A DNA stretch of 64,000 bases from Halopseudomonas xiamenensis (GTDB lineage: Bacteria; Pseudomonadota; Gammaproteobacteria; Pseudomonadales; Pseudomonadaceae). The notes beneath the pieces are model-generated. The model saw only the letters and a program-made list of their open reading frames with translations, made no database searches and was not told the origin of the DNA. The translations under genes were made by a program, and so were the position numbers. Below, piece by piece: positions 13,317 through 54,733 of the stretch. The stretch is taken from NCBI RefSeq assembly GCF_014219065.1, contig NZ_JACLGO010000010.1, positions 1 through 64,000 of the forward strand, in the 5' to 3' direction. The first letter of the stretch is position 1. Each line of letters opens with the position of its first letter.

Positions 13317-14321
13317 TCAGAGTCCATCCAGCAGGCTGCTTACCCGCAGCCGTTCATTCGGCTCGAACTGCTCCTGCAGCAGACTGTCGATGGCCTGCTG
13401 CTTGTCGTCGTCGGCCAGGCCGGGGTGTTGCAGAATCGCCTCGCGCTCATGGTTGAACTGCTCCAGCCGCTGTTGCCATTGCTGGCGTTGCCGGTCGAGC
13501 GCCTCTAGCCGACCGGTAGCCTCCGGCCCCACCAGGCTCAGGCGCAGCTGCTGGATCTGTTCGGGGCTGGCGCCTTCTTCCTGCAGGCTGCGGGTCTGCT
13601 GGCTCAATTGCTGATGAATCTGCGGTACCAGCAGGTCTTGCATGGCGCCGGGCAGGTCGTTGCGCAGTGCCTCTACCCGCTCGGCCTTGTCCTCGGCGCT
13701 CAGGCCATCATCCTGCAGAATCGCCAGGCGCTCCAAGGTGAAATTGTTGTAGACCTCCTCCGAGGCGAAGAACGCGGCGTGGGCCTCGGCACTGAACAAA
13801 CCGGCGCGCAGGCGCTGTACGGCATCCTCCCGCGCTCTCAGGTCATCGAGATCGGCGACCACCGGAAAACGCTCCTCCAGCGCCACCAGTTCCTCCTTGT
13901 ATTCGATATAACGCTCCAGCAGGTCCAGCGCCTGGCCCTGTGCCGGTTCTGGTAACTGGCTGGCGAGATAATCCCGGATGCGGGCAATGGCGCTGTCGAC
14001 ACTTTCCTCGCCCACGGTGGTGAGGAAATAGTCGAACAGATGGCGGATCTGGTCGGTGATCAGCAGGTTACCCTGGTGGTCGACCTCCAGCATGCCGTCG
14101 ACTGCGGTGTCGCGCAGCGACGCGGGCGCCGGGCCGGGTGCGGTGGCCGGCTGGTGTATGGCGTTGCTGATCATGGGCAGGTCTGCCTGGTCGGCTTGCT
14201 GCGGGTTGGCGGGGCGCTCTACCCGTGGCGCCGGTACTGTCGGCTCGTCAGCGGGGCCGAGAAAGTGCCAGCCAAGCAGTGCGGCGCTGATCAACAGGGG
14301 GGCGTAGATGACGGCTTTCAT
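13317..14321 (-). CDS. lifO: Lipase-specific foldase (lipase chaperone)
   Basis: A 334-residue membrane-anchored periplasmic steric chaperone. The N-terminus MKAVIYAPLLISAALLGWHFLG is the anchor, followed by a Pro/Ala-rich linker and the helical foldase domain. The family motif RxxFDY(F/L)LS appears as IRHLFDYFLTTVGEES near residues 88-103. Extended helices with many Gln, Glu and Arg follow (RLEALDRQRQQWQQRLEQF). It folds the secreted lipase encoded just upstream before export by the type II system. lipA ends 66 bases before its start, with a strong hairpin in between. Length and architecture are typical of Pseudomonas foldases (also called LipB, LipH or Lif). Confidence 0.92.
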   Translation of the reverse strand: MKAVIYAPLLISAALLGWHFLGPADEPTVPAPRVERPANPQQADQADLPMISNAIHQPATAPGPAPASLRDTAVDGMLEVDHQGNLLITDQIRHLFDYFLTTVGEESVDSAIARIRDYLASQLPEPAQGQALDLLERYIEYKEELVALEERFPVVADLDDLRAREDAVQRLRAGLFSAEAHAAFFASEEVYNNFTLERLAILQDDGLSAEDKAERVEALRNDLPGAMQDLLVPQIHQQLSQQTRSLQEEGASPEQIQQLRLSLVGPEATGRLEALDRQRQQWQQRLEQFNHEREAILQHPGLADDDKQQAIDSLLQEQFEPNERLRVSSLLDGL

Positions 14322-14387: not shown

Positions 14388-15344
<957 letters not shown>

Positions 15345-15596: not shown

Positions 15597-15619
15597 GCCA
15601 TTGCGGTCGCACCAATGCC
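15597..15619. promoter_or_regulatory. Imperfect inverted repeat, candidate enhancer-binding site
   Basis: GCCATTGCGG-TCG-CACCAATGCC is an inverted repeat with 8 of 10 arm positions matching. It is centred about 130 bases upstream of the start point expected from the sigma-54-like element at 15715-15731, a normal distance for a bacterial enhancer-binding protein. No such activator gene is in the window. This is inference from geometry. The rest of the 15333-15791 intergenic stretch holds no convincing gene. Confidence 0.3.
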
Positions 15620-15714
15620 GGGCGATTTCCTGTTCTCTGCAAGATACGTCCGACACTCCCTGTTTTCTGCTTTTGTCCTTTTAAATCAAAAGCGTAAGAA
15701 CTTATTTCGGAACC

Positions 15715-15731
15715 TTGGCACGCCCGGTGCA
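15715..15731 (+). promoter_or_regulatory. Candidate sigma-54 promoter of the organosulfur-type cluster
   Basis: TTGGCACGCCCGGTGCA matches the sigma-54 consensus (TTGGCACG-N4-TTGCA) at every position but one, with the -24 GG and -12 GC in correct spacing. Transcription would begin near 15741, about 50 bases before the substrate-binding protein start. In Pseudomonas, sulfone-use genes are known to be sigma-54 dependent through SfnR-type activators, which agrees with the suspected role of this cluster. Confidence 0.6.
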
Positions 15732-15755
15732 GCAGTAATAGCAGGCGTTATGACC

Positions 15756-15765
15756 TGTTAATACA
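15756..15765. promoter_or_regulatory. TGT-N4-ACA site between the sigma-54 element and the first gene
   Basis: TGTTAATACA has TGT/ACA half-sites like those bound by GntR-family regulators (GT...AC core). It lies about 15 bases downstream of the expected start point, where a bound repressor would block transcription. A second copy of the same pattern, TGTCATGACA, lies at 19036-19045 just before the GntR gene of the same cluster. Binding is inferred. Confidence 0.35.
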
Positions 15766-15791
15766 AGTTGACCAACCGCAAGGTGAAGACG

Positions 15792-17159
15792 ATGACGAAC
15801 CGAAAAGGCCTGATTGCTCTTGCACTAAGCAGTACGTTTCTGTTCAGCGGAATAACGATGGCGAAGACCATCGAAATCGGCATCGGTCATCAGAGCATGG
15901 TGACCAATACCGTTTCCGGTGGCGTGATTCTGGACAAGCTCAAACTCATTGAAAAATATCTGCCAACCACCGGGCAGTACGAAGACGCCAAGTACAAGAT
16001 CGTATTTCGTGACTACGACTCGGGCCCGCCGATCACCAATCAGATGCTTGCCGGCAAGCTCGACTTTGGCGTGATGGGTGACTACCCGCTGATTGTCAAT
16101 GGCGCCAAGTTTCAGGAAACCAAATCCCAGCAGACCCGATTCATCGGTGTTACCGGCTACAACCTCAAGGGCACCGGTAACGGCATCGTGGTGCCCTACG
16201 ACTCCCCTGTACAGTCGCTGGCCGATCTTGCCGGCAAGAGTCTGTCCGTTCCGGTGGGCAGCGCCGCCTGGGGGATGACGCTCAAATCACTGCGTGACGC
16301 CGGGTTGTTCGGCAAGGTGCAGATCGTCAATCAGGCACCACCGGTGGGTGCTGCCAATATCGCCGCCAGACGCATCGACGCCCATGCCGACTTCTGCCCG
16401 TGGTCGGAAATCATGGAATTTCGTGGCACGGCGCGCAAGATCTTCGATGGCAGCGAGGCGGGTATACCCACCTTCCACGGCATCGTGGTGCGCGAGGCTT
16501 TTGCCCGGCGGCATCCGCAGATCGTCGAGGCTGTGCTGGCTGCCACCCTGGAGGCTCAGCAATGGATTCAGTCCGATCCGGTGATGGCTGCCACCCAGGT
16601 ATCCGAATGGACCGGTGTGGAGAAGGAAGTGCTGTACCTGTATTTCAGCCAGGGCGGTATTTCCACCATGGAAGCCAGCATCAAACCGCAGTGGGTCGAG
16701 GCACTGAAGTACGACCACGCATTGTTGCAGAAGGAAATGGATATTCCGGATCTGGACTTCGACGCCTGGATCGATGACAGCTACCTGAAACGCGTCTATG
16801 CCCGCGCTGGCCTCGACTACGACGCCATGGTGCAGACCGTGGTCAGTACCCAGCCGGGTAACCCGGACTTGCCCGCCGCCGAGATGTGGCTCGAAGGCCA
16901 GGGCGTCCAGGGCTTCCCCTCCATCGCCGAGATGCTTGTTGCCGTTGAGGAGGCCAACGCCGCCGGCCACAAGATCAAAGCTACCTATGTGTACGACAAC
17001 CTCACCGGGCTGAAGCTGTTCGGTAAGGCGGCCTATCTGGTACGCGGCGAGGCGGGCGAGGTGGTCGCCTTCATGAAGAAGTCCGACTCCGACCAATACC
17101 TCGTCGAGCACGGCGGTACCGCGCTGCTCAAGGGCGACACCGTGGCAATGCTGCCCTGA
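15792..17159 (+). CDS. ABC transporter substrate-binding protein, SsuA/TauA/NMT1-like, with C-terminal extension
   Basis: A 455-residue periplasmic binding protein. The signal peptide is MTNRKGLIALALSSTFLFSG followed by ITMA. The body resembles sulfonate/nitrate/taurine binding proteins: FRDYDSGPPITNQMLAGKLD, FGVMGDYPLIVNG, SLADLAGKSLSVPVGSAAWG. It is longer than SsuA (about 320 residues). The last 60 residues (from about 396) read YVYDNLTGLKLFGKAAYLVR then VAFMKKSDSDQYLVEHGG, which reminds me of the NosL fold. The ATG at 15792 was preferred to a TTG eight codons earlier because AGGTGAAG precedes it. It starts the cluster and is followed by permease and ATPase. A sulfonate or other organosulfur ligand is likely, given the neighbours, but not proven. 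Confidence 0.82.
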   Translation: MTNRKGLIALALSSTFLFSGITMAKTIEIGIGHQSMVTNTVSGGVILDKLKLIEKYLPTTGQYEDAKYKIVFRDYDSGPPITNQMLAGKLDFGVMGDYPLIVNGAKFQETKSQQTRFIGVTGYNLKGTGNGIVVPYDSPVQSLADLAGKSLSVPVGSAAWGMTLKSLRDAGLFGKVQIVNQAPPVGAANIAARRIDAHADFCPWSEIMEFRGTARKIFDGSEAGIPTFHGIVVREAFARRHPQIVEAVLAATLEAQQWIQSDPVMAATQVSEWTGVEKEVLYLYFSQGGISTMEASIKPQWVEALKYDHALLQKEMDIPDLDFDAWIDDSYLKRVYARAGLDYDAMVQTVVSTQPGNPDLPAAEMWLEGQGVQGFPSIAEMLVAVEEANAAGHKIKATYVYDNLTGLKLFGKAAYLVRGEAGEVVAFMKKSDSDQYLVEHGGTALLKGDTVAMLP

Positions 17160-17177
17160 CGCAGAAGGAATTCCGAT

Positions 17178-18116
17178 ATGAATATGAAAGTGAGCGCAGT
17201 GGTTGCCGATCCAGTATCCACTGAAGTAACCGAACCCTGTCAGTCTGGCGACACTCCGACCGTCAGCGCCCCGCTGGCGCCGGCGGCGCAGCATGCCGAG
17301 CAGGACGCCCATGCACGGATAGCTGCACGGCACGCCTTGATGGAGAAGAGCAGGCGCTATCTGGTGCGTGTCGCCGCGCTGATCATGGCGGTGGCGCTAT
17401 GGCACCTTGCATCAACCTACGATTTCAATCTGTTCGTCAACTTCGAACATGTACCGGAGCCTGCGCTGGTGGGCCAGGCACTCATGGCCGAGTTGTCAGG
17501 CAGCGAGTTCTACCTGCATATCGCCCATAGTCTGCAGCGCATTGCCATCGCCTACGGTCTGGCAGTCGTGCTCGGGGTAACACTGGGCGTGCTGATGGGC
17601 CGCTCGAAGTGGGCCGAAGACATCATCCTGCCGTATATCGAGCTGCTGCGCCCGATACCGGCGGTGGCCTGGATTCCGCTGGCCATCCTGATGCTGCCCA
17701 GTGAGCAATCGAGCATCGTGTTCATCACCTTCCTCGGAGCGCTGTTTCCGGTGGTGCTCAACACCGTGCACGGCGTGGAACAGACCAGCGGCGTGCTGGT
17801 GCGTGCCGCCCGCTGTCTGGGTGCCAACAATCGCTCGATCCTCTGGCACGTGATCATCCCGGGTGCCATGCCGAGCATCGTTACCGGTCTGGCGGTGGGC
17901 ATGGGCGTGGCGTGGTTCTCCTTGCTTGCTGGGGAAATCATCAGCGGCCAGTACGGTATCGGCTACTTCACCTGGACCTCCTACACGCTGATCCAGTATC
18001 CGCAAATCATCATTGGCATGCTCACCATCGGCCTGCTCGGCACGCTGAGCACCTTGCTGGTACGCAAGGTCTGCAGTCCGCTGCTGCGCTGGCAGCCCAC
18101 AGGAGGTCGTGTATGA
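17178..18116 (+). CDS. ABC transporter permease, SsuC/TauC-type
   Basis: A 312-residue inner-membrane permease of the nitrate/sulfonate/taurine ABC family. A hydrophilic N-terminus of about 55 residues precedes the first helix (VRVAALIMAVALWHLAS). Further helices are IAYGLAVVLGVTLGVLMG and IVFITFLGALFPVVLNTVHG, then the EAA-loop region (RAARCLGANNRSILWHVIIP then GAMPSIVTGLAVGMG) that contacts the ATPase. It starts 18 bases after the binding-protein gene and overlaps the ATPase gene by four bases (ATGA), so translation is coupled. Confidence 0.88.
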   Translation: MNMKVSAVVADPVSTEVTEPCQSGDTPTVSAPLAPAAQHAEQDAHARIAARHALMEKSRRYLVRVAALIMAVALWHLASTYDFNLFVNFEHVPEPALVGQALMAELSGSEFYLHIAHSLQRIAIAYGLAVVLGVTLGVLMGRSKWAEDIILPYIELLRPIPAVAWIPLAILMLPSEQSSIVFITFLGALFPVVLNTVHGVEQTSGVLVRAARCLGANNRSILWHVIIPGAMPSIVTGLAVGMGVAWFSLLAGEIISGQYGIGYFTWTSYTLIQYPQIIIGMLTIGLLGTLSTLLVRKVCSPLLRWQPTGGRV

Positions 18117-18991
18117 ACAGCACCCTGGTTAACGACAGCCGTCTCGCTGTACTCGATCACAGCCGGCTCAAGTCCAAGTCCATCAGGGACGTAGAGGGGC
18201 GTGGCAGGATTCTGGTCAGCGGGGTCGATATCGAGTTTGGCCATAAGGGAGCCAGGACCGTGGCGGTGGGGCAGGCCAACCTGGAGATCCACTCTGGCGA
18301 GTTCGTCTGTCTGCTCGGGCCATCCGGGTGTGGCAAATCGACCCTGCTCAATGCCATCGCCGGCTTCGTCACTCCCACCCGGGGGCAACTCAGCGTGGAT
18401 GGCAAGGCGGTGACCGAGCCGGGGCCGGATCGCGGCATGGTGTTCCAGCAGCATTCGCTGTTCCCCTGGAAAAGCGTGCACGACAACGTCGCTTTCGGTC
18501 CGCTGATGGCGGGCGCCAGTCGCCCCGAGGCCGGCAGCGTAGCGCGCACCTTCCTGTCGCTGGTCGGCCTGGCAGCGTTCGCCGATGCCTATCCCACCAC
18601 GCTGTCCGGGGGCATGCAGCAGCGTGTGGGGATTGCCCGGGCGCTGGCCAACTACCCAAGTGTTCTGCTGATGGACGAGCCCTTCGGCGCGCTGGATGCA
18701 CAGACCCGGATCATGATGCAGGAGAATCTGCTGGAGATCTGGCGCGAGTTCCGCAACACCGTGGTGTTCGTTACCCACGATATCGACGAGGCCGTGTTCC
18801 TCTCCGACCGCATCGTGGTGATGAGCGCCAGCCCCGGGCGGATCATCGCTGACATCAAGGTGGATCTGCCGCGCCCACGCGACCAGAGCCTGCTCACCAG
18901 TCCCGAATTCATGATGCTCAAGCGCCAGTGTCTGGAATTGATCCGTGAGCAGACCTTGGCGGCCTTCAAGCAACAGAACCAGGCGGGCTGA
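18113..18991 (+). CDS. ABC transporter ATP-binding protein, SsuB/TauB-type
   Basis: A 292-residue ABC ATPase. Walker A is LLGPSGCGKSTLLNAIAG, the Q-loop is in GMVFQQHSLFPWKSV, the signature is TLSGGMQQRVGIARAL, Walker B is VLLMDEPFGALDAQTR, and the switch histidine is in FVTHDIDEAVFLSDR. The LFPWKSVHDNV segment is characteristic of the nitrate/sulfonate/taurine importers. I chose the ATG at 18113, which overlaps the permease stop and follows AGGAGG; it leaves a 35-residue N-terminal extension before the ABC domain. It completes the importer with the two preceding genes. Confidence 0.9.
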   Translation: MNSTLVNDSRLAVLDHSRLKSKSIRDVEGRGRILVSGVDIEFGHKGARTVAVGQANLEIHSGEFVCLLGPSGCGKSTLLNAIAGFVTPTRGQLSVDGKAVTEPGPDRGMVFQQHSLFPWKSVHDNVAFGPLMAGASRPEAGSVARTFLSLVGLAAFADAYPTTLSGGMQQRVGIARALANYPSVLLMDEPFGALDAQTRIMMQENLLEIWREFRNTVVFVTHDIDEAVFLSDRIVVMSASPGRIIADIKVDLPRPRDQSLLTSPEFMMLKRQCLELIREQTLAAFKQQNQAG

Positions 18992-19035
18992 ACATGGGCA
19001 ATCCGATGTTTCTCCCATCTGTGCTCGACATTACA

Positions 19036-19045
19036 TGTCATGACA
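19036..19045. promoter_or_regulatory. Perfect palindrome TGTCATGACA before the GntR gene
   Basis: TGTCATGACA is a perfect 10-base palindrome with TGT-N4-ACA half-sites, ending 15 bases before the chosen GntR start codon. It matches the TGT-N4-ACA pattern at 15756-15765 in front of the first gene of the cluster. Autoregulation by the GntR protein is a reasonable inference. Confidence 0.4.
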
Positions 19046-19060
19046 ACCGGAGTGACCGCC

Positions 19061-19804
19061 ATGAACGGAACTGAGCAATTCGCGCCGGGCCAGTCGCCAC
19101 TGCCGCTGTATGTGCAGATCCGCGACAACCTGCGGCGCAGGATTCTGGAGGGTAGTTATGCCATCCATGAGCGCCTGCCGTCGGAAAACGAAATGATGCA
19201 CGCCTTCGGTGTCAGCCGCATCACCATCCGCCAGGCTCTGCGTGACCTGCATAACGAAGGCCTGGTGTTCAGCGCCCAGGGCAAGGGTACCTATGTCAGC
19301 AAGCCCAAGGCTGTGCAGAACGTGCAACGGCTGCAGGGCTTTGGTGAAGCGATGGCCGCCCAGGGCTATGAAGCCACAGGCAGGCTGCTGGGTATCCGCC
19401 AGGGCAAACCGTCCAAGCCGGTGATCGCCGCGCTTGGTCTGCCACTCCACGAGGAGGTGGTGGAGGTCAAGCGCGTGCGCTACCTCAACCGCGAGCCGGT
19501 GTGTCTGGAGAGCAGTTACTTCCCGCTGGATATCGGCCGTCGGCTGTTTTCCAGGGACCTGTCCGGCGACATTTTTCCCATGCTTGAAAACTTCTTCGGC
19601 ATCCCCCTCGGCAGCGCGGAGATCGGCCTTGAGGCGGTCCTTGCCGATGACGAAACCCAGGACCTGCTCGGCCTCAAAGCCGGTGAGGCGATCCTGCGGG
19701 TGGAGCGCCTCACCCATGACCGCAACGGTCGCCCCATCGACTTCGAATACCTCTGTTACCGCGGTGATTCATTCAAATACCAGTTCCGTGTAGAGCGGAA
19801 ATAG
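19061..19804 (+). CDS. GntR-family regulator with UTRA ligand domain (HutC type)
   Basis: A 247-residue regulator. The N-terminal winged helix is plain: LPLYVQIRDNLRRRILEGSY, LPSENEMMHAFGVSRITIRQ and GLVFSAQGKGTYVSKPK. The C-terminal UTRA domain includes VVEVKRVRYLNREPVCLESS, LKAGEAILRVERLTHDRNG and FEYLCYRGDSFKYQFRV. UTRA domains bind small metabolites; HutC-type members usually repress the catabolic genes next to them. I took the ATG at 19061, which has GGAGTG upstream, over one at 19040 that lacks a site and overlaps a palindrome. Its place between importer and enzyme genes suggests it controls the cluster. The inducer is probably the imported compound or a product of it. Confidence 0.87.
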   Translation: MNGTEQFAPGQSPLPLYVQIRDNLRRRILEGSYAIHERLPSENEMMHAFGVSRITIRQALRDLHNEGLVFSAQGKGTYVSKPKAVQNVQRLQGFGEAMAAQGYEATGRLLGIRQGKPSKPVIAALGLPLHEEVVEVKRVRYLNREPVCLESSYFPLDIGRRLFSRDLSGDIFPMLENFFGIPLGSAEIGLEAVLADDETQDLLGLKAGEAILRVERLTHDRNGRPIDFEYLCYRGDSFKYQFRVERK

Positions 19805-19814
19805 GAGATCAGCC

Positions 19815-21554
19815 ATGACTACAACCATCAATGACATACCCGTAATCGATACCGACGTGCTGGTGATCGGTGGCGGCACCGCTGGCCCGATGGCCGCGGT
19901 AACGGTGAAGGAGCAGGACCCTTCGCTGAAGGTGATGCTGCTGGAAAAGGCCAACGTCAAACGCTCGGGTGCCATCTCCATGGGCATGGACGGGCTCAAC
20001 AATGCGGTGGTGCCCGGCCATGCCACCCCCGAGCAGTACGTCAAGGAAATCACCATCGCCAATGACGGCATCGTCCACCAGCCGGCCCTGATGGCCTACG
20101 CCACGCGTTCCTTTCCGATGATCGAGAAGCTCGACTCCTGGGGTGTGCATTTCCAGAAGGATGAAACCGGCGACTACGACATGAAGAAGGTGCATCACCT
20201 GGGCACCTATGTTCTGCCGATGCCCGAAGGGCACAACGTGAAGAAGATCCTCTACCGCCGCCTGCGCCGTGTGCGGGTGGAGATCGAGAACCGCTTCCAG
20301 GCCACCCGCCTGCTCAAGGACCCGGACGGCAACATCGCCGGCATGATCGGGGTGAACACCCGTACCGCCGAGCCGATCATCATCCGCGCCAAGGCGGTGA
20401 TCATGGCCACCGGTGCCGCCGGCCGCATAGGCCTGCCCAACTCCGGCTACCTGTTCGGCACCTATGAGAACCCCGCCAACTGCGGTGATGGTCACGCCAT
20501 GGCCTATCACGCCGGTGCCGATCTGGTGAACCTGGAGTGCTTCCAGGTCAACCCGCTGCTCAAGGACTACAACGGCCCGGCCTGCGCCTACGTTACCGGT
20601 CCCCTGGGCGGTTTCACCGCCAATGCCTATGGCGAGCGCTTCATCGAATGCGATTACTGGTCCGGGCAGATGATGCTGGAGTTCTTCAAGGAGCTGGAAT
20701 CCGGCACCGGCCCGGTGTTTCTCAAGCTCGATCACCTGGCCGAGGAAACCATCCAGGAGATCGAGACCGTGTTGCACACCAATGAGCGACCGACCCGCGG
20801 CCGCTTCCATGATGGGCGCCAGGTCGACTACCGCCAGCGCATGGTCGAGATGCATATCTCCGAGATCGGCTTCTGTTCCGGCCACTCCGCCTCGGGCGTA
20901 TGGACCGACGAAACCGGCGCAACCACGGTACCCGGCCTGTATGGCGCCGGGGATATGGCCTCGGTCGCGCACAACTACATGCTCGGTGCCTTCGTCTTCG
21001 GCCAGATCTGCGGCGAAAGCGCTGCGCAGTTCGTCAAGGATCGCGCCACGCCCGTACTCGACGAGGGTTTCATTGCCGCGGAGCTGGCGCGTATCCAGGC
21101 TCCGTTGCAGGTCAAGGACGGTATCCCCCCCGAGCAGATGGAATACAAGGTGCGCCGGCTGGTGAACGATTACCTGCAACCGCCCAAGGTCACCAAAAAA
21201 ATGGAGATCGGCCTGGAGCGCATTCTTGCCGTGCGCGAGGACCTGCCCCTGCTCTCGGCGGCCGACCCACACCAATTGCTGCGCGCGCTGGAGCTGCAGT
21301 CAATTATCGACTGCGCCGAGATGGCCGCCCGCGCCTCGTTGTACCGCACTGAATCGCGCTGGGGGCTGTACCACTACCGCGTCGATTATCCCGAGCAGGA
21401 CAACGGCGAATGGTTCTACCACACCCGCCTGTTCAAGGATGCCAACGGCAACATGGCCAGCGGCAAGCGGCCGGTCGCCGAGTACATCGTACCGCTGGGT
21501 GAGGAGAAGGACGCCTACAGCAAGATGCGTGTCAAGAAAGCGGCCAATGCCTGA
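19815..21554 (+). CDS. AprA-like FAD flavoprotein (adenylylsulfate reductase alpha / fumarate reductase superfamily)
   Basis: A 579-residue flavoprotein. The FAD Rossmann motif VLVIGGGTAGPMAAVTVKEQ is at residues 15-34, followed by LLEKANVKRSGAISMGMDGL and later VIMATGAAGRIGLPNSGY. Three areas resemble dissimilatory APS reductase AprA more than fumarate reductase: EKANVKRSGA, the segment SGHSASGVWTDE with His357 where AprA has a conserved active-site His, and the C-terminal RTESRWGLYHYRVDYPEQDN. The next gene encodes an AprB-like two-cluster ferredoxin. A heterotrophic pseudomonad with an organosulfur-type importer is not expected to reduce sulfate for respiration, so the pair may act on another sulfur compound or run oxidatively. 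The substrate is unknown. An AGGAGA site precedes the ATG. Confidence 0.8.
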   Translation: MTTTINDIPVIDTDVLVIGGGTAGPMAAVTVKEQDPSLKVMLLEKANVKRSGAISMGMDGLNNAVVPGHATPEQYVKEITIANDGIVHQPALMAYATRSFPMIEKLDSWGVHFQKDETGDYDMKKVHHLGTYVLPMPEGHNVKKILYRRLRRVRVEIENRFQATRLLKDPDGNIAGMIGVNTRTAEPIIIRAKAVIMATGAAGRIGLPNSGYLFGTYENPANCGDGHAMAYHAGADLVNLECFQVNPLLKDYNGPACAYVTGPLGGFTANAYGERFIECDYWSGQMMLEFFKELESGTGPVFLKLDHLAEETIQEIETVLHTNERPTRGRFHDGRQVDYRQRMVEMHISEIGFCSGHSASGVWTDETGATTVPGLYGAGDMASVAHNYMLGAFVFGQICGESAAQFVKDRATPVLDEGFIAAELARIQAPLQVKDGIPPEQMEYKVRRLVNDYLQPPKVTKKMEIGLERILAVREDLPLLSAADPHQLLRALELQSIIDCAEMAARASLYRTESRWGLYHYRVDYPEQDNGEWFYHTRLFKDANGNMASGKRPVAEYIVPLGEEKDAYSKMRVKKAANA

Positions 21555-21628
21555 ACGGACAGTATGTGCTGCGGCCCGAATGGCCGCGGCGCTCCAGACC
21601 TGACTATAGCCTTGATGAGGATACAACC

Positions 21629-21862
21629 ATGCCCATAGCCAACCATTACGCCAGCGTCCCGGTCGTTGTGGACGAAGAGAAATGCATCGCCGACAAGGGC
21701 TGTCGCGTATGCATCGATGTCTGCCCGCTCGACGTTCTGTGGATCAACGAAGACACCGGCAAGGCACACATGAAGTACGACGAATGCTGGTACTGCATGC
21801 CCTGCGAGACCGACTGCCCCACCGATGCGGTGAAGGTCAACATCCCTTACCTCCTGCGCTGA
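21629..21862 (+). CDS. AprB-like 2x[4Fe-4S] ferredoxin
   Basis: A 77-residue iron-sulfur protein with two cysteine clusters: EKCIADKGCRVCIDVCPLDV and DECWYCMPCETDCPTDAVKV. Each ends in CP, as in 8Fe ferredoxins and in the beta subunit of APS reductase, but the protein lacks the long C-terminal tail by which AprB wraps AprA. Its position directly behind the AprA-like gene (74-base gap) makes it the probable electron carrier or subunit for that flavoprotein. The ATG at 21629 follows GATGAGGA. The HEAT-repeat gene starts 11 bases after its stop. Confidence 0.85.
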   Translation: MPIANHYASVPVVVDEEKCIADKGCRVCIDVCPLDVLWINEDTGKAHMKYDECWYCMPCETDCPTDAVKVNIPYLLR

Positions 21863-21873
21863 AGGACGACACC

Positions 21874-22833
21874 ATGAAGACTTATGACGATCCAGACCTG
21901 CAGGATATTGCCCTGAAACTCGCTTCCACCGACCCGGGTATCCGCCGCGTTGCGGTACTCGACCTGGTGGACAGCGGTGAGCCGGAAGCCGTCGAACTGC
22001 TGATCCAGGCTCTCAACGACCCGGACCCCTCGGTGCGTCAGGAAGCAGCCAAGGTGGTGGACGAATTCGATGCGGTGGATATTGCCGATGCACTGATCGC
22101 TGCCCTGGGCGATAGCAACGAAGTGGTGCGCAACGCCGCAGCCCATGCCCTGGCCGACCTGAAGGACCCGGCTGCTGCCTACCCGCTGCTCGAGGCACTG
22201 GCGGGCAGCCAGGACAGCTTCGTCGTGGCGGGCATCCTGCGTGCGCTCAAGCCGCTGCGCAATCCCGCTGCCCAGGGTCCCGCCCTGGCGCGTCTGAGCG
22301 ATCCCGATGCGCTGGTACGCCGCGAGGCCGTGGGCGTCATCGGCTGGCTGAAACAACCGGAAAACCTGCCGGCGCTGATGGAGCGTGCGCAACAGGATGA
22401 CGATCCGGATGTGCGCCGTGCCGCCACTGGTGCACTGGTCTATGCCGACGCGGCGCAGGTCGGGCCGACGCTGGTCAGCCTCCTGGGCGATCAGCACTGG
22501 CAGGTACGGATCGAGGCGGCGGTGAGCATCGGCAAGCTGGATTACCAGCAGGCCATGCCGGAGCTGATCAAGTCCACGCGTGACAGCTTCTGGCAGGTTC
22601 GCGAGAAAGCTGTCGATGCCCTGGGCAAGCTGGGGGCGGTCGGCGCGATTCCGGTGCTGGGTGAGTGCGCGCGCGACCCCATGAGCAACCTGCGCAAGGC
22701 GGCCATCGGCGCGCTGGGCAGCATCGGCCACGACGATGGCCGGCCCTTCATCTCGGTCGCCATGGATGATCCGGACCCGGATGTACGCAAGCTTGCGCGC
22801 TGGGCCATGTCGAAGCTGGGCGCAGCCGCCTGA
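21874..22833 (+). CDS. HEAT-repeat protein (PBS-lyase-type repeats)
   Basis: A 319-residue all-helical repeat protein, with roughly nine HEAT-like units of about 31 residues. Examples are DPDPSVRQEAAKVVDEFDAV, SNEVVRNAAAHALADLKDPA, DPDALVRREAVGVIGWLKQP and DDPDVRRAATGALVYADAAQ. No catalytic motif is seen. Such proteins act as scaffolds or chaperones and recur beside cofactor-containing oxidoreductases, so it may assemble or hold the AprA-like and ferredoxin proteins. The ATG at 21874 follows GAAGGACG; the frame is open further upstream but overlaps the ferredoxin gene in another frame. A long stem-loop follows the stop codon. Confidence 0.85.
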   Translation: MKTYDDPDLQDIALKLASTDPGIRRVAVLDLVDSGEPEAVELLIQALNDPDPSVRQEAAKVVDEFDAVDIADALIAALGDSNEVVRNAAAHALADLKDPAAAYPLLEALAGSQDSFVVAGILRALKPLRNPAAQGPALARLSDPDALVRREAVGVIGWLKQPENLPALMERAQQDDDPDVRRAATGALVYADAAQVGPTLVSLLGDQHWQVRIEAAVSIGKLDYQQAMPELIKSTRDSFWQVREKAVDALGKLGAVGAIPVLGECARDPMSNLRKAAIGALGSIGHDDGRPFISVAMDDPDPDVRKLARWAMSKLGAAA

Positions 22834-22842
22834 ACCAGGCGG

Positions 22843-22880
22843 CTGACCTGGCCAGCCGTGTAACGGGCTGGCCAGGTCAG
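22843..22880 (+). promoter_or_regulatory. Perfect 15-bp intercistronic stem-loop
   Basis: CTGACCTGGCCAGCC and GGCTGGCCAGGTCAG pair perfectly around an 8-base loop in the 81-base gap between the HEAT-repeat and 7Fe ferredoxin genes. No U tract follows and the genes continue on the same strand. It probably acts as an mRNA stability, processing or partial termination element separating the upstream and downstream halves of the cluster. Confidence 0.65.
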
Positions 22881-22914
22881 CAGGTTGAAAAGCATATGTA
22901 ATGAGGATTTCGCC

Positions 22915-23238
22915 ATGACCTTTGTCGTTACCGAAAACTGTATCCGCTGCAAGTACACCGACTGCGTGGAAGTCTGTCCGGCGGACTGCTTCCATGAAGG
23001 CCCGAACTTTCTGGTGATCAATCCGCAGACCTGCATCGATTGCAGTCTGTGCGTCCCGGAATGTCCCGCTGACGCGATATTCGCCGACAAGGAAATACCC
23101 CCAGCGCAGGCGCACTTCATCGAGTTGAACGCCGAGCTGTCCGAGCTCTGGCCGGTCATCAGCCAGACCAGCGAGCCCATGTACGGCGCAGATGACTGGG
23201 TCGATCAGGGCGGCAAGCTGCAGTTCCTCGAGCGCTGA
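22915..23238 (+). CDS. fdxA: 7Fe ferredoxin (FdxA-type)
   Basis: A 107-residue ferredoxin with one [3Fe-4S] and one [4Fe-4S] site. The motifs are [20 protein letters not shown] and [17 protein letters not shown], followed by the long C-terminal tail [18 protein letters not shown] typical of the Azotobacter/Pseudomonas FdxA family. It is a low-potential electron carrier. Here it sits inside a cluster that also encodes a ferredoxin-NADP reductase, so it may carry electrons between NADPH and the AprA-like enzyme. The ATG at 22915 was selected because the family begins [17 protein letters not shown] and GAGGA precedes it. Confidence 0.9.
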
Positions 23239-23241
23239 ACC

Positions 23242-23409
23242 ATGCGCCAACTTGTCATGACGAGTGGCTTGAAACAGATGCTGGTCGCCCTGTTGATTGT
23301 CGGCGCAGCCAGCGACAGCGCTCGTCCTGTGCTGCTGGAAGACCGGTTTATCAGGCTCGCCGAGGCGCCAGTGCTGCTGATCCCGGCTCGTACCGGCCCG
23401 AATAGTTGA
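23242..23409 (+). CDS. Small ORF of 55 residues, unrecognised
   Basis: This reading frame starts 4 bases after the FdxA stop and ends 12 bases before the DUF971 start, so it exactly fills the gap. It encodes a basic start (MRQLVMTSGLKQM), a short hydrophobic run (LVALLIVGAAS) and a polar C-terminus ending ARTGPNS. No family is recognised. Translation could be coupled to fdxA. It may be a real small membrane-associated protein of the cluster or simply an open gap; the only support is its fit in the operon. Confidence 0.4.
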   Translation: MRQLVMTSGLKQMLVALLIVGAASDSARPVLLEDRFIRLAEAPVLLIPARTGPNS

Positions 23410-23421
23410 GGAGTAGAAACC

Positions 23422-23754
23422 ATGTCCATTCAGATCGTTGTCGAGGCACCCCGGGAAGTACGCCTGAGAAAGGCGCAAAAGAAACTGGAAATACTCTGGT
23501 CGGACGGCGAGCTCAGCAGCTTCAGCTGTCTGGCCCTGCGCAAGTCCTGCGCCTGCGCATCCTGCATCCGGGACCGGCAGGTTGGCACGCTGACGCTGAT
23601 CGACGCCGAGGTCGCGATCGACCGGCTTGAGGTTCCCGGTGTCAGCGGGTTGCAGTTTCACTTTTCCGATGGTCATTACCGCGGGCTCTACCCCTGGGCC
23701 TACCTGCGCGAACTGGCCGGTCTGACCACCAGCCCCGGCGAGCAAGCAGCATGA
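23422..23754 (+). CDS. DUF971 protein (gamma-butyrobetaine-hydroxylase-like N-terminal domain)
   Basis: A 110-residue single-domain DUF971 protein. The characteristic core is KKLEILWSDGELSSFSCLAL followed by RKSCACASCIRDRQVG, with a Cys-x-Cys-x2-Cys metal-site pattern, then SDGHYRGLYPWAYLREL. DUF971 domains occur free-standing, fused to gamma-butyrobetaine hydroxylase, and next to Mrp/ApbC ATPases, and are suspected to act in metal or Fe-S handling. That fits the Mrp gene in this cluster. It overlaps the start of the YeiH-type exporter gene by four bases (ATGA). Confidence 0.85.
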   Translation: MSIQIVVEAPREVRLRKAQKKLEILWSDGELSSFSCLALRKSCACASCIRDRQVGTLTLIDAEVAIDRLEVPGVSGLQFHFSDGHYRGLYPWAYLRELAGLTTSPGEQAA

Positions 23755-24758
23755 GCGAGCGCGCCCAACCCCGGGAGTGGCTGTCGTGGATGGCGGTGCG
23801 GCGCCTGTATCCCGGCGTCGCACTCTGCGTAGTGCTGGCTCTGGCAGGCAGCTTCCTGGCGGAGCATTACCTGACCCCGGCCCTGTTGCTGGTGCTGCTG
23901 CTCGGGTTCGGTTTCGCCAGCCAGGCGGGTGATGAGCGCGTCCAGCCGGGGATCAACTTCTGCAGCCGCCAGGTTCTACGCATCGGCGTGGCATTGCTGG
24001 GCGCACGCATGGGCGTTGAGCAGTTGCTGGTGGTGGGGAGCCTGCCGTTGTTGGTGGTACTGACCTGCGTACCCCTGACCATCGGCGTTGCCCTGGGACT
24101 GGGCCGTTGGTTGGGGCTGCCCACCATGCAAAGCCTGGTGGCCGGCGTCGCCGTTGCCATTTGCGGCGTATCTGCGGCTATCGCGGTAGCGGCGGTGCTC
24201 CCGGCTGGCCGGCTGGAAGAGCGCCGGTTGTTGGCCGTGGTGGTCGGCGTGACGGTGCTGGGAACCCTGTCCATGCTGGTCTACCCGCCGCTGCTCTCCG
24301 CCCTGGGGTATACCGAGGTGCAGGCGGGGCTGCTGCTTGGTACGGCCATTCATGATGTGGCTCAGGCGGCGGGCGCTGGCTATCTGATCTCCGATTCCGC
24401 AGGTGACGTTGCCACCCTGACCAAGCTGCTGCGCGTGGCACTGCTGGCGCCACTGGTGCTCCTGCTCGGCTTGCTGTTGCGCAGGGGCAGGACCGGCGAA
24501 ACGGAATTCCCCTGGTTTCTGCTGGGCTTTCTGGCGCTGTTCTGCCTGAACAGTCTCGGCTGGCTGCCTTCCCCGCTGCAAAACATTCTGGTGTCGATTT
24601 CCACCGCCTGCCTGCTGGTCACCATGGCTGCGCTGGGCATGCGCACCAGTCTGGGCGCATTGCTGGCACAGGGCTGGCAACCAATAGCCCTGTTACTGAT
24701 TACGAGCCTGCTGCTGATGGTGTCCGCCATCGGTTCGCTGGCGCTATTTACGAGTTGA
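23751..24758 (+). CDS. YeiH/TauZ-family putative sulfate or sulfite exporter
   Basis: A 335-residue polytopic membrane protein of the UPF0324/YeiH family, with about ten hydrophobic segments. Family landmarks are GINFCSRQVLRIGVALLGAR, VAVAICGVSAAIAVAAVLPA and LLGTAIHDVAQAAGAGYLIS followed by TKLLRVALLAP. Members, including TauZ of taurine-degrading bacteria, are proposed to expel sulfite or sulfate released from organosulfonates. Its presence here is one of the strongest hints that the cluster liberates inorganic sulfur from an imported compound. It overlaps the DUF971 gene by four bases and is followed by the ferredoxin reductase gene after 28 bases. Confidence 0.85.
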   Translation: MSERAQPREWLSWMAVRRLYPGVALCVVLALAGSFLAEHYLTPALLLVLLLGFGFASQAGDERVQPGINFCSRQVLRIGVALLGARMGVEQLLVVGSLPLLVVLTCVPLTIGVALGLGRWLGLPTMQSLVAGVAVAICGVSAAIAVAAVLPAGRLEERRLLAVVVGVTVLGTLSMLVYPPLLSALGYTEVQAGLLLGTAIHDVAQAAGAGYLISDSAGDVATLTKLLRVALLAPLVLLLGLLLRRGRTGETEFPWFLLGFLALFCLNSLGWLPSPLQNILVSISTACLLVTMAALGMRTSLGALLAQGWQPIALLLITSLLLMVSAIGSLALFTS

Positions 24759-24786
24759 TTTTCTGCAATCGTTGGAGGATGCCCCT

Positions 24787-25563
24787 ATGGCAGCAATAGG
24801 TACGGAAAGTGTTCTGAGTGTCCATCACTGGAACGATACGCTGTTCAGCTTCAGGACCACGCGCGATCAGAGCCTGCGTTTCGAGAACGGGCATTTCGTC
24901 ATGATCGGTCTGCCAATTGATGGCAAGCCGCTGATGCGCGCCTACAGCATCGTCAGCGCTAACCATGACGAGTATCTGGAGTTTCTCAGCATCAAGGTTC
25001 CGGACGGGCCGCTGACGTCGCGACTGCAGCATCTGAAGGCGGGCGACTCGCTGATGATCAGCCGCAAGCCAGTAGGCACCCTGGTGATTCACGATCTGCG
25101 CCCCGGCAAGCACCTGTTCCTGTTCGGCACCGGTACCGGGCTGGCCCCGTTCATGAGCATCATCCGTGATCCGGAGGTCTACGAGCGGTTCGAGAAGGTG
25201 GTACTGGTGCACGGCGTGCGTCAGGTCAGCGAACTGGCCTATCACGACTATCTGACCCGGGAGCTGCCGGAGCACGAGTTCCTCGGCGAAGAGGTGCGTG
25301 AGAAGCTCATCTACTATCCCACCGTCACCCGCGAGCCGTTTCGCAACCAGGGCCGCATCACCACATTGCTGGAGACCGGCAAATTGACCAGCGATCTGGG
25401 CTTGCCCGCAATCAACAGTACCACTGACCGGGTGATGATGTGCGGTAGTCCGGCCATGCTGGAGGAGCTGACCAGGATGCTCGATGGCATGGGTTTCTGC
25501 GCCTCGGCGCAGCAGGGGGAGCCGGGTGACTATGTGATCGAACGGGCTTTCGTTGAGAAATGA
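24787..25563 (+). CDS. fpr: Ferredoxin-NADP(+) reductase
   Basis: A 258-residue Fpr-type flavoenzyme. The FAD site is in LMRAYSIVSANHDEYLEFLS, close to the RxYS motif, with the nucleotide-binding LFGTGTGLAPFMSIIRDPEV. The NADP region includes VLVHGVRQVSELAYHDYL and VMMCGSPAMLEEL, and the protein ends VIERAFVEK as bacterial Fpr enzymes do. It exchanges electrons between NADPH and ferredoxin or flavodoxin. The start at 24787 follows GGAGG; an in-frame ATG five codons earlier overlaps that site. Its place in the cluster suggests it supplies or receives electrons through FdxA or the AprB-like ferredoxin. Confidence 0.92.
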   Translation: MAAIGTESVLSVHHWNDTLFSFRTTRDQSLRFENGHFVMIGLPIDGKPLMRAYSIVSANHDEYLEFLSIKVPDGPLTSRLQHLKAGDSLMISRKPVGTLVIHDLRPGKHLFLFGTGTGLAPFMSIIRDPEVYERFEKVVLVHGVRQVSELAYHDYLTRELPEHEFLGEEVREKLIYYPTVTREPFRNQGRITTLLETGKLTSDLGLPAINSTTDRVMMCGSPAMLEELTRMLDGMGFCASAQQGEPGDYVIERAFVEK

Positions 25564-25602
25564 CAACCGCCTGGCGATGAACGTCGAACCAAGGAGTACA
25601 GC

Positions 25603-26469
25603 ATGTCGCAAGCACAACCAGCAATAGCAACGATCCCATCGAGCCCGGCGGTCGAGCGGGTTCCCCAGTCGATACCCGGTGTGAAACATCTTATTGCTGT
25701 GGCCTCGGGCAAGGGCGGCGTCGGCAAATCGACCACGACCACCAATTTGGCCCTGGCTTTTGCCGCAGAGGGCGCCAGGGTCGGCATTCTTGATGCTGAT
25801 CTGTACGGCCCCAGCCAGCCAAGAATGCTGGGGTTGACCGGCTTGCCGCAGGTGGTTGAAGGTCGCATGCAACCGCTGGTGGGATACGGTATACAAACCA
25901 TGTCCATCGGTTTTCTGATCGATGATGAATCCCCGGTTATCTGGCGCGGCCCGATGATCACCCAGGCGCTGGCACGCTTGCTGAACGAGACGGACTGGCA
26001 GCAACTGGATTACCTGATCATCGATATGCCACCGGGAACCGGCGATATCCACCTGACCATGGCGCAGCGCATGCCGGTTTCCGGCGCGGTTATTGTCACC
26101 ACCCCACAGGACATTGCGCTGCTCGATGCCCGCAAGGGCTTGAAGATGTTCCAGAAGGTCAACATTCCGGTGTTGGGCATCATCGAGAACATGAGCACCC
26201 ATCTATGCAGCCAGTGCGGTCATGAAGAACACATCTTCGGGGCAGGGGGCGCGCTGCGTATGGCCGAGCAGTACGGCAGTGAAATGCTTGGTGAGTTGCC
26301 CCTGGATATCCGCATCCGCATCGGTGCCGATGACGGCCGTCCCATTCTCGTGGCCGATCCGCAGGGCGCTCTGGCCCAGACCTATCGGGACATCGCGCGC
26401 AAGATCGCCGCGAGATTGTCCACCACTGTCCAGACCACGCAGCCGATACCGACCATCACCATTGCCTAG
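25603..26469 (+). CDS. Mrp/ApbC-type P-loop ATPase, Fe-S cluster carrier
   Basis: A 288-residue Mrp/Nbp35 ATPase. The deviant Walker A is VASGKGGVGKSTTTTNLAL, followed by ILDADLYGPSQPRMLGL, and the switch region contains IIDMPPGTGDIHLT. The C-terminal CSQCGHEEHIFG carries the paired cysteines that hold a bridging [4Fe-4S] cluster. It lacks the N-terminal DUF59 domain of E. coli Mrp, so it is a short form. It probably loads clusters onto the two ferredoxins in this cluster. It is the last gene on this strand before a 124-base gap containing an inverted repeat (GCGGCCA...TGGCCGC near 26533-26558). Confidence 0.9.
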   Translation: MSQAQPAIATIPSSPAVERVPQSIPGVKHLIAVASGKGGVGKSTTTTNLALAFAAEGARVGILDADLYGPSQPRMLGLTGLPQVVEGRMQPLVGYGIQTMSIGFLIDDESPVIWRGPMITQALARLLNETDWQQLDYLIIDMPPGTGDIHLTMAQRMPVSGAVIVTTPQDIALLDARKGLKMFQKVNIPVLGIIENMSTHLCSQCGHEEHIFGAGGALRMAEQYGSEMLGELPLDIRIRIGADDGRPILVADPQGALAQTYRDIARKIAARLSTTVQTTQPIPTITIA

Positions 26470-47540: not shown

Positions 47541-48436
47541 GCCTTCTTCTCCATTTCCCGGGCCTGGTTGTAGTGGAACAGCGTGATCGGGATCAGCAGC
47601 AGTACCAGCATCACGATTGCCAGCGCCGAGGCCACCGGCCAGTCACGGTTGTTGAAGAACTCCTGCCACAGCACCTTGCCGATCATCAGCGTTTCCGGTC
47701 CACCCAGCAGTTCCGGGATGACGAACTCACCGACCACCGGGATGAACACCAGCATGGAGCCGGCGATGATGCCGGAGCGCGACAGCGGTACGGTCACCTT
47801 CCAGAACGCCTGGATGCGCCCGGCGCCGAGGTCCAGCGCCGCTTCCAGCAGGGTCGCGTCGTGCTTGACCAGGTTGGCGTACAGCGGTAGTACCATGAAC
47901 GGCAGGTAGGCATAGACCACGCCGATATACACGGCGGTGTTGGTATTGAGAATCTGCAGTGGCGCATCGATCAGGCCCAGCGACAGCAGCGTCGAGTTGA
48001 GCAGGCCGTTGCTGCTGAGAATGCCCATCCAGGCGTAGACGCGGATCAGGATCGCGGTCCAGGTCGGCATCATGATCAGCAGCAGGTAAATCAGCTGGCG
48101 TTCGCGTGGTGCCCGGGCGATGGCATAGGCCATCGGGTAGCCGAGCGCCAGGCACACCAGGGTGGAGATCAGGGCGATCTTCAGCGAGCCGAGATAGGCC
48201 GAGACATACAGGCTGTCCTGGGTCAGGAAGATATAGTTGCCCATGTTCAGGACAACCGTCAGCGCCTGCTCGGCATACTGGAAGATCGGCTCGTAGGGCG
48301 GGATGGCGATCGCCGCCTGGGAGAAGCTGATCTTCAGCACGATGGCAAACGGCAACAGGAAGAACAGCAGCATCCACAGGTAGGGGATGCTGATCACCAG
48401 CGCTTTGCCGCTGGGCAGGTGCAGGCGTTTTCTCAT
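47537..48436 (-). CDS. spuG: Polyamine ABC transporter permease, PotH/SpuG type
   Basis: A 299-residue permease. The first helix is ALVISIPYLWMLLFFLLPFA, later helices include ALISTLVCLALGYPMAYAIA and YLLLIMMPTWTAILIRVYAW. The EAA loop is EAALDLGAGRIQAFWKVTVP, which docks the ATPase. It overlaps spuF by four bases upstream and spuH by four bases downstream. The family transports putrescine and spermidine with a PotF/SpuD-like binding protein, encoded at 49619. Confidence 0.9.
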   Translation of the reverse strand: MRKRLHLPSGKALVISIPYLWMLLFFLLPFAIVLKISFSQAAIAIPPYEPIFQYAEQALTVVLNMGNYIFLTQDSLYVSAYLGSLKIALISTLVCLALGYPMAYAIARAPRERQLIYLLLIMMPTWTAILIRVYAWMGILSSNGLLNSTLLSLGLIDAPLQILNTNTAVYIGVVYAYLPFMVLPLYANLVKHDATLLEAALDLGAGRIQAFWKVTVPLSRSGIIAGSMLVFIPVVGEFVIPELLGGPETLMIGKVLWQEFFNNRDWPVASALAIVMLVLLLIPITLFHYNQAREMEKKA

Positions 48437-49569: not shown

Positions 49570-49591
49570 ATGTTACTCCCCCAACAAGTGA

Positions 49592-49610
49592 GGGGCCGCA
49601 GGGCGGCCCC
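49592..49610 (-). promoter_or_regulatory. Hairpin between spuD and spuF
   Basis: GGGGCCGC and GCGGCCCC form an 8-bp stem with a 3-base loop between the binding-protein stop and the ATPase start. Such hairpins often let the binding protein be made in excess of the membrane components. No U tract follows on the minus strand. Confidence 0.5.
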
Positions 49611-49618
49611 GACAAGGT

Positions 49619-50716: not shown

Positions 50717-50940
50717 GCTTTCTCCTGTTACAGACGCCGTCCTGGGGCCGGGCCGGTCTGTGCTGTGATTGGCCGGAGGGCCGGCCGTCATCGGTTGATC
50801 GATCAATACCCGGAAACACGCCGGGTTCCACTTTGCTACGAACGCTCCATGTCGGCAGGCAGTTCGGCCAGCCGGGATAGTGTATGCAAGGTCTCTTCGC
50901 GCGGATAGAGCATCTTGCCATCAGGATGTCCTTGCCAGGT

Positions 50941-52311: not shown

Positions 52312-52350
52312 GCTCGGTACTCCTGTGATCCGTGTTGTTAGCGGCGGGCG

Positions 52351-54464: not shown

Positions 54465-54652
54465 GATGGTGTCTGCGCGGGTGGCGGCTTGCATAATGGA
54501 TTGTTCAATTTTTCATACAATAGCAACAAAAAATAATAACCACAAAATGATGATGATCTCATGATGGTGAGGTGGGCAAACTACTGTTGCCGGAGCTTGA
54601 TAATGATCATAGAGGGTGCGCTACGCCCCGTTTTGGGGCGGCTGGGGTTCTA

Positions 54653-54681
54653 TTGACTCACCGGGGGCTTTCGGATTTACT
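54653..54681 (+). promoter_or_regulatory. Candidate sigma-70 promoter for the gene at 54734
   Basis: TTGACT at 54653-54658 and TTTACT at 54676-54681 are spaced by 17 bases. They lie 53 bases before the start codon of the glutamine-synthetase-like gene. A palindrome CGCCCC-gtttt-GGGGCG lies just upstream at 54624-54640, and an ATTGT...ACAAT repeat at 54500-54521 lies nearer spuA. Confidence 0.4.
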
Positions 54682-54733
54682 CTCAGGCAAGAGAGTCATG
54701 ATTGATATATTTTACAAATAACAGGTGACGAAC

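Follow-up and report, generated by a model that had tools for sequence, protein, structure and literature searches.

A conserved gene cluster around an APS reductase–like flavoprotein and its possible role in nitrogen scavenging

In a stretch of Halopseudomonas xiamenensis DNA of 64,000 nucleotides (assembly GCF_014219065.1, contig NZ_JACLGO010000010.1, positions 1 to 64,000; hereafter, the window), 12 co-directional genes at positions 15792 to 26469 of the + strand surround a flavoprotein of the PRK08275 family that resembles AprA, the flavin adenine dinucleotide (FAD) subunit of adenosine 5′-phosphosulfate (APS) reductase. We tentatively propose that, in lineages where a sigma54/NtrC-type promoter precedes it, this cluster scavenges nitrogen from an anion bearing both nitrogen and sulfur, with the sulfur discarded as waste. 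Use of such an anion as a nitrogen source is the simplest account of an importer, an AprBA-like enzyme that appears to be reductive, exporters, and nitrogen control. An earlier reading of the sequence alone (the original prediction) had described uptake of a sulfur compound, its conversion by an AprA-like flavin/Fe-S enzyme fed through ferredoxin, and export of sulfite or sulfate, with an implied role in sulfur supply. The genes that it named all lie on one strand in the order it gave, as confirmed gene by gene.

RESULTS

An importer, the flavoprotein, a ferredoxin, and a HEAT-repeat protein recur together

Loci were gathered through the AprA-like protein from 20 sampled genomes, 80 contigs, and 6 plasmids, 106 loci in total. 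The contigs represent the best 80 among 514 confirmed relatives, and the counts therefore lean toward near relatives. The loci span 24 named genera, and 18 carry no genus name. Plasmid loci were hand-picked from 55 records; six belong to the 106-locus set and seven more to a 113-locus set. One unannotated locus (L141) enters only the residue counts, the tree, and the promoter-box search, and the Ilyobacter locus L145 was included solely for reference. Absences carry little weight in eight of the 106 loci, which are shorter than 15 kb.

The neighborhood survey that the original prediction had called for revealed strong co-conservation: the AprA-like protein, the AprB-like ferredoxin, and the HEAT-repeat protein occur together in all 106 loci gathered through AprA. 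Genes for the ATP-binding cassette (ABC) importer were nearly as frequent (ATPase in 96 loci, permease in 94, and periplasmic binding protein, SBP, in 93), followed by those for the GntR regulator (85) and the DUF971 protein (84). FdxA (60), Fpr (44), YeiH (35), a CRP-family regulator (19), and Mrp (15) were rarer. Since gene order varies among lineages, the association is more than shared synteny, and the presence of the AprA/ferredoxin/HEAT trio in every locus indicates a grouping beyond chance. The minimal set therefore consists of the importer, AprA, AprB, the HEAT protein, and a regulator. In Tsukamurella, AprA and the HEAT protein are fused into a single 893-residue protein (NF010374, 1568 bits versus a cut-off of 1196), which forms a run with GntR, the ferredoxin, and three ABC genes, uninterrupted by other genes. 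The HEAT protein of the window aligns with positions 613 to 896 of the fusion model NF010374.

The PRK08275 flavoprotein is unevenly distributed: of 398 genomes sampled from the phylum, 21, including that of the window, contain a protein above the cut-off. The module was found in three phyla (Pseudomonadota, Cyanobacteriota, and Actinomycetota), on both chromosomes and plasmids, and its hosts include Stutzerimonas, sulfur oxidizers (Thiobacillus, Halothiobacillus, Sulfuriferula, and A. caldus), a methanotroph, rhizobia, and cyanobacteria. Among the best 80 of the 514 relatives, the closest named ones are Pseudomonas sp. MYb185 (AprA 99%), P. profundi, Stutzerimonas, Marinobacter, and Halomonas. 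Two cyanobacteria, Pseudanabaena and Leptolyngbya, have the set together with Mrp, a YeiH-type exporter, and TauE/SafE. On a 44-kb plasmid of Acinetobacter baumannii (L135), the cluster adjoins a chromate efflux gene, one sign of mobility. In five loci of marine gammaproteobacteria (L072, L075, L076, L077, and L079), the ABC genes are separated from GntR by SCO1/SenC and cytochrome c genes.

The flavoprotein branches separately from APS and PAPS reductases

The flavoprotein of the window scores 1024 bits with NF006131 (PRK08275), well above the cut-off of 587. The family title, “fumarate reductase/succinate dehydrogenase,” is a label only, with no tested function behind it. In the tree, the flavoprotein forms a third branch, sister to the APS and 3′-phosphoadenosine 5′-phosphosulfate (PAPS) reductases and outside the succinate dehydrogenase/aspartate oxidase group, whose three Sdh/Nad rows make up a separate starred group. 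The APS reductase–like enzyme of the original prediction is thereby borne out.

Three established identities were considered and rejected. The dissimilatory APS reductase model TIGR02061 gives 152.5 bits versus a cut-off of 641.75, and the tree and residues are also contrary to this assignment. The model for flavin PAPS reductases of the Methanothermococcus thermolithotrophicus type (MtPAPSR), PRK06854 (NF005331), gives 278 bits versus 557, and these enzymes occupy a separate branch. Succinate dehydrogenase/fumarate reductase (TIGR01812, 155 bits versus 567) is likewise separate in the tree.

At the positions of AprA Arg265 and Trp234 (A. fulgidus numbering), all 114 loci have Leu248 and Tyr217, compared with Arg and Trp in six of six AprA controls. 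Asn74 and His398 are kept as Asn62 and His357 in all 114 loci, with identical letters in the six controls. There are, in addition, many family-specific invariant residues, three of which are cysteines. The Leu in place of Arg265 and the family-specific invariants show that the predicted active site is altered compared to AprA. With AprBA, the cluster’s enzyme shares the fold, the counterparts of Asn74 and His398, and a beta subunit with two [4Fe-4S] clusters; the missed TIGR02061 cut-off and the substitutions Leu248 and Tyr217 set it apart.

AlphaFold2 (AF2) models were of poor confidence with alignment A1 (predicted local distance difference test, pLDDT, of 61.3) and better with alignment A2 (72.5). 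In the A2 model, segments 201 to 224, 243 to 261, and 339 to 356, which contain Tyr217, Leu248, Cys257, and Cys354, have pLDDT values below 50. In every one of the 114 loci, the AprB-like ferredoxin keeps its eight cysteines and Trp55. It matches the MtPAPSR beta subunit at 4.7e-7; chains of the polyferredoxin FwdF match better (2e-11).

The binding protein resembles SsuA and TauA and carries a NosL-like domain

Among solved structures, the SBP is nearest to SsuA and TauA, in line with the sulfur-compound importer of the original prediction; a fourth match is labeled a nitrate transport protein. The SBP does not reach the cut-off of the SsuA family (TIGR01728, 112.6 bits versus 163.5). Its likeness to SsuA and TauA suggests a binder of the sulfonate type. 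As can be seen from Table 1, the protein ends in a NosL-like domain. PF05573 (NosL) matched at E ≤ 0.1 in 11 of 11 domains scanned (proteins of alignment A3; best, 3.3e-9), and a profile match to NosL 7og7 was obtained at 1.7e-4; when the SBP of the window was scanned as a whole protein, PF05573 gave only E = 0.15. Copper binding is not proposed for this domain: the YVHDMS stretch of 7og7 was aligned, and its H and M, which we take to be the copper ligands, are not kept.

A sigma54/NtrC-type promoter precedes the cluster in part of the lineages

The first cluster gene of the window is preceded by a sigma54-type promoter, with an NtrC-type box 106 nt upstream of it (Table 1). The consensus patterns used were those of the −24/−12 elements for sigma54, GCAC-N7-GTGC for NtrC, and GTA-N8-TAC for NtcA. 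The promoter lies outside every open reading frame (ORF) of at least 100 amino acids, and its first base coincides with 15715, the start given to the cluster in the original prediction. In the window’s genome, the pattern matched 13 times, the cluster’s match having the top promoter score, and a reversed control pattern matched 5 times. The glnA and glnK promoters of the same genome, used as a positive control, have an identical layout with perfect NtrC boxes. From the promoter and box layout, the cluster is predicted to belong to the NtrC/RpoN regulon.

Across loci, a sigma54 site with at least 10 of 13 consensus positions stands before the first gene in 43 of 106 cases, compared with 210 of 5000 random 420-nt stretches. 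In 36 of these 43 loci, a box of the NtrC type with no more than one mismatch is located 60 to 140 nt upstream, and in 13 the box is perfect; random stretches yielded 0.4% perfect and 4.9% one-mismatch boxes (5.3% together). Boxes with other spacings gave one perfect match overall in the 43 loci. The sigma54 + NtrC pair was thus found at 36 of 106 first genes versus 4 of 806 ORFs that lie in these loci outside the cluster. When any cluster gene was allowed, the pair preceded 53 of 964 genes in 45 of 106 loci; this count covers about nine genes per locus, and the first-gene count is stricter. The pair is concentrated in two layouts, ABC-GntR-AprA, which is that of the window (28 of 35 loci), and GntR-AprA...FdxA-SBP, found in Thiobacillus, Azoarcus, and A. 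caldus (15 of 17); the remaining layouts, apart from two considered in Discussion, have it in 1 of 7 loci.

In two of three cyanobacterial loci, the SBP gene is preceded, at distances of 73 and 75 nt, by an NtcA-type palindrome GTA-N8-TAC; the motif occurs in total 4 times in 25.7 kb and 2 times in 23.5 kb of these loci. Overall, predicted nitrogen control has good support in two lineages and is not general. Neighboring amtB-glnK, allophanate hydrolase, and amidase genes (8 of 113 loci) are compatible with nitrogen scavenging and are not conserved.

Ferredoxin-reducing modules replace each other, and exporters lie near the core

Electron donors and exporters were counted in the 113-locus set within 10.5 kb. 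Fpr was found in 44 loci, an Nfn-like protein in 9, and an Rnf operon in 4, and no locus holds two of them. The probability of such mutual exclusion is ~0.0006 under independent placement, with phylogeny ignored. The Nfn-like protein (~1,180 residues; e.g., L104 16800-20339 and L133 10574-14035), none of whose nine loci has Fpr, resembles a fused glutamate-synthase-beta/NAD(P)-binding ferredoxin oxidoreductase, with PRK06567 as the nearest model. Since three unrelated ferredoxin-reducing modules swap, reduced ferredoxin appears to be their common need, and we infer that the AprA-like enzyme works reductively. Supply of electrons through ferredoxin, as originally predicted, agrees with these modules beside the core.

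An exporter was found in 42 of 113 loci (YeiH in 37, TauE/SafE in 10, and both in 5). The YeiH/UPF0324 protein of the window passes PF03601 (207 bits versus a gathering score of 24.5) and fails TIGR00698 (122.8 bits versus 232.6). The presence of exporters suggests that sulfite or sulfate is an end product exceeding need, and the export that had been predicted is probable. Among seven loci of sulfur oxidizers (L084, L089, L092, L093, L104, L108, and L133), two of which are ~10-kb contigs, six have no exporter; such hosts could oxidize sulfite themselves. Exporters occur in 26 of 45 loci with a nitrogen promoter versus 13 of 61 without one, and ferredoxin-reducing modules in 37 of 45 versus 20 of 61 (kinship ignored in both comparisons).

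Features of the cluster and of the rest of the window

The features of the cluster are collected in Table 1. Family-profile scans of the 12 genes detected no SsuD- or TauD-type enzyme. An anti-phage role was rejected after a PADLOC scan of 6 of the 12 proteins: AprA, the ferredoxin, the SBP, and the DUF971 protein gave no match, and the HEAT and Mrp proteins gave generic matches only.

Table 1. Coordinates of cluster genes and regulatory sites in the window.
Feature	Position	Strand	Basis
NtrC-type enhancer box GCAC-N7-GGGC	15609-15623	+	One mismatch to GCAC-N7-GTGC
Sigma54 −24/−12 promoter TTGGCACG-CCCG-GTGCA	15715-15731	+	12/13 consensus positions; 60 nt 5′ of SBP start codon
SsuA/TauA-like periplasmic binding protein (SBP)	15792-17159	+	Nearest solved structures
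NosL-like C-terminal domain of SBP	16857-17156	+	PF05573; NosL 7og7 profile match
ABC transporter permease	17178-18116	+	PF00528
ABC transporter ATPase	18113-18991	+	PF00005
GntR/UTRA regulator	19040-19804	+	PF00392, PF07702
AprA-like FAD subunit (PRK08275 family)	19815-21554	+	NF006131, tree, residues, fold
AprB-like ferredoxin, two [4Fe-4S], eight cysteines	21626-21862	+	
HEAT-repeat protein	21874-22833	+	PF13646, E 8.6e-59
FdxA ferredoxin	22915-23238	+	NF045490, 159.8 bits versus cut-off 135
DUF971/GBBH-like N domain protein	23422-23754	+	PF06155 (current accession for DUF971)
YeiH/UPF0324 putative sulfite or sulfate exporter	23751-24758	+	PF03601
Fpr-like ferredoxin-NADP reductase	24787-25563	+	NF008178, 149 bits, under cut-off 390
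Mrp/ApbC Fe-S carrier ATPase	25603-26469	+	NF008669, 376 bits versus cut-off 348

Upstream of the cluster, the window encodes a lipase secretion chaperone (13320-14321; NF002334 over cut-off), and the adjoining ORF (14391-15332) appears lipase-like by eye and has no NCBIfam match at 1e-30. Region 48436-56176 contains a polyamine ABC ATPase (TIGR01187 over cut-off), an aminotransferase (NF005682 over cut-off), and two glutamine-synthetase-like proteins under model cut-offs; it looks like a region for polyamine uptake and breakdown.

DISCUSSION

Our results are consistent with the following tentative scheme of nitrogen scavenging. The SsuA/TauA-like ABC importer would bring in a small anion in which nitrogen and a sulfonate-type S(VI) group are combined. 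Ferredoxin would be reduced by NADPH, NADH, or an ion gradient through Fpr, the Nfn-like protein, or Rnf and would pass electrons to the AprB-like subunit. The next step would follow the pattern of APS reductase, with N5 of the reduced FAD in the AprA-like subunit attacking the sulfuryl sulfur. On general redox grounds, AprA-type N5 chemistry on sulfuryl groups less activated than that of APS would plausibly require lower-potential electrons. The nitrogen-bearing product would leave the enzyme first, followed by sulfite; nitrogen would be retained, and excess sulfite or sulfate would exit via YeiH or TauE. The HEAT protein would be an obligate partner, probably a scaffold, and the DUF971 protein and Mrp probably provide Fe-S clusters.

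No deaminase or carbon-breakdown gene recurs among the annotated recurrent neighbors of the cluster. Therefore, an N-sulfonate such as sulfamate is the most economical candidate substrate, since its cleavage would yield ammonia directly. Our guess places sulfamate-type N-sulfonates first and taurine-like aminosulfonates next. In its most specific form, the proposal would make the enzyme a third AprBA-type class that cleaves N-S bonds with low-potential electrons from ferredoxin to give ammonia or an amine and sulfite, serving as a route to nitrogen with sulfur as waste. This would explain the need for only an importer, AprAB, the HEAT protein, an electron donor, and an exporter; taken as a whole, we regard this form as unlikely.

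Several observations weigh against nitrogen scavenging. The NtrC box of the window deviates at one position of its second half-site, and one-mismatch boxes also arise with a 9-nt spacing in 21 of 43 loci. The sigma54 + NtrC pair occurs in 0 of 27 loci of the AprA-AprB-SBP layout (Burkholderia kin, Massilia, Herbaspirillum, and six same-family genomes) and in only 1 of 20 loci of the DUF971/CRP layout. The nitrogen promoter is carried in part by closely related loci (17 of 48 genus-level labels), and no GlnR box was detected, with the patterns tried, upstream in two actinobacterial loci. Within 10.5 kb, 56 of 113 loci have no ferredoxin-reducing module and 71 of 113 no exporter; the Nfn-like protein is under the PRK06567 cut-off (526 versus 1072 bits), and several TauE matches are weak (26 to 33% identity) and lie up to 8.8 kb away, one of them on the opposite strand. 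Last, when a yeast uses sulfamate as a sulfur source, the route runs via sulfate, not sulfite (PMC5534208).

An alternative, which we consider rather unlikely, is sulfur scavenging, where an imported sulfonate is reductively desulfonated solely to obtain sulfite as a sulfur source. The closeness of the SBP to SsuA and TauA, the presence near some loci of an LLM monooxygenase gene or of additional ABC genes of the SsuA type, and the layouts with no nitrogen promoter agree with it. However, it does not account for the NtrC/sigma54 and NtcA-type sites, it makes exporters superfluous, and the cluster is present in sulfur oxidizers. The sites and the lithotrophic hosts are also what speaks against the sulfur-source role that the original prediction implied for the window’s lineage; nitrogen scavenging fits better in lineages with such sites.

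It is less probable still that the substrate is a sulfur-free nitrogen compound, such as a nitro compound or an N-oxide, the likeness to AprA and SsuA reflecting ancestry only and YeiH exporting something else. A changed active site, with Leu for Arg265 and invariant residues that include the three cysteines, would suit such a substrate, as would the nitrogen promoter and the SBP match labeled nitrate transport protein; the YeiH and TauE genes near the loci and an SBP closest to sulfonate binders argue against it. An oxidative direction, as for AprBA in sulfur oxidizers, with ferredoxin reductases acting as electron sinks, is very improbable: homology to the reversible AprBA would allow it, yet Rnf, the Nfn-like protein, and Fpr substitute for each other as a common need for reduced ferredoxin predicts, and the importer and exporters indicate breakdown of an imported compound.

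The proposed nitrogen-scavenging system differs from characterized ones. MtPAPSR (PDB 8a8o; PMC10322725) lies on a separate branch of the tree and keeps the Arg265 equivalent, where the cluster flavoprotein has Leu. On the Ilyobacter plasmid pILYOP02 (L145, 7399-10878), cysC and cysD flank an MtPAPSR-like AprA/ferredoxin pair that has a DASS anion symporter next to it, whereas our cluster has an importer and the HEAT protein instead; the Ilyobacter operon is a candidate bacterial flavin PAPS reductase. The isethionate reductase IsrBHDK (PMC11423573) is similar in that an imported sulfonate is assimilated, sulfite is released by an enzyme that its authors term a reductase, and the transporter is SsuCAB. 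It differs in being a nitrogenase-like enzyme with a radical SAM protein and in being reported as a sulfur-source pathway. The importer is likewise close to SsuABC and TauABC by its SBP, which differs in the added NosL-like domain and in scoring under the SsuA_fam cut-off.

Searches of open-licence literature by protein terms found no account of the whole gene set, in agreement with the original prediction, which could name no characterized pathway, and none of the HEAT partner or the AprA-HEAT fusion. Nor did open-licence papers yield an account of nitrogen control of the cluster or of the SBP’s NosL-like domain, neither that domain nor NtrC regulons having been searched by name. For reductive desulfonation, only chemistry papers were retrieved from this literature, and no title or abstract start among the matches listed concerned bacterial use of sulfamate nitrogen. 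The main texts of a Gordonia fluorotelomer-sulfonate transcriptome study (PMC7661421) and of a nitrogen-fixation transcriptome study of P. stutzeri A1501 (PMC2820453) do not contain, respectively, fumarate reductase or ferredoxin and sulfonate, fumarate reductase, or HEAT. One copy has been depicted: in a 2025 paper (PMC12375680), that of Fervidacidithiobacillus caldus (A. caldus) pTcM1 is drawn as “ferredoxin/APS reductase/GntR” with a NitT/TauT-type sulfonate transporter, and such operons are labeled organosulfonate uptake and assimilation, a sulfur source.

If nitrogen scavenging is confirmed, a family now filed as fumarate reductase would represent a third APS reductase–like enzyme with a remodeled active site. 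Some bacteria would then gain nitrogen from sulfonated nitrogen compounds in a ferredoxin-driven reaction while excreting sulfur, and the nitrogen and sulfur cycles would be linked in hosts as different as Stutzerimonas, sulfur oxidizers, a methanotroph, rhizobia, and cyanobacteria.

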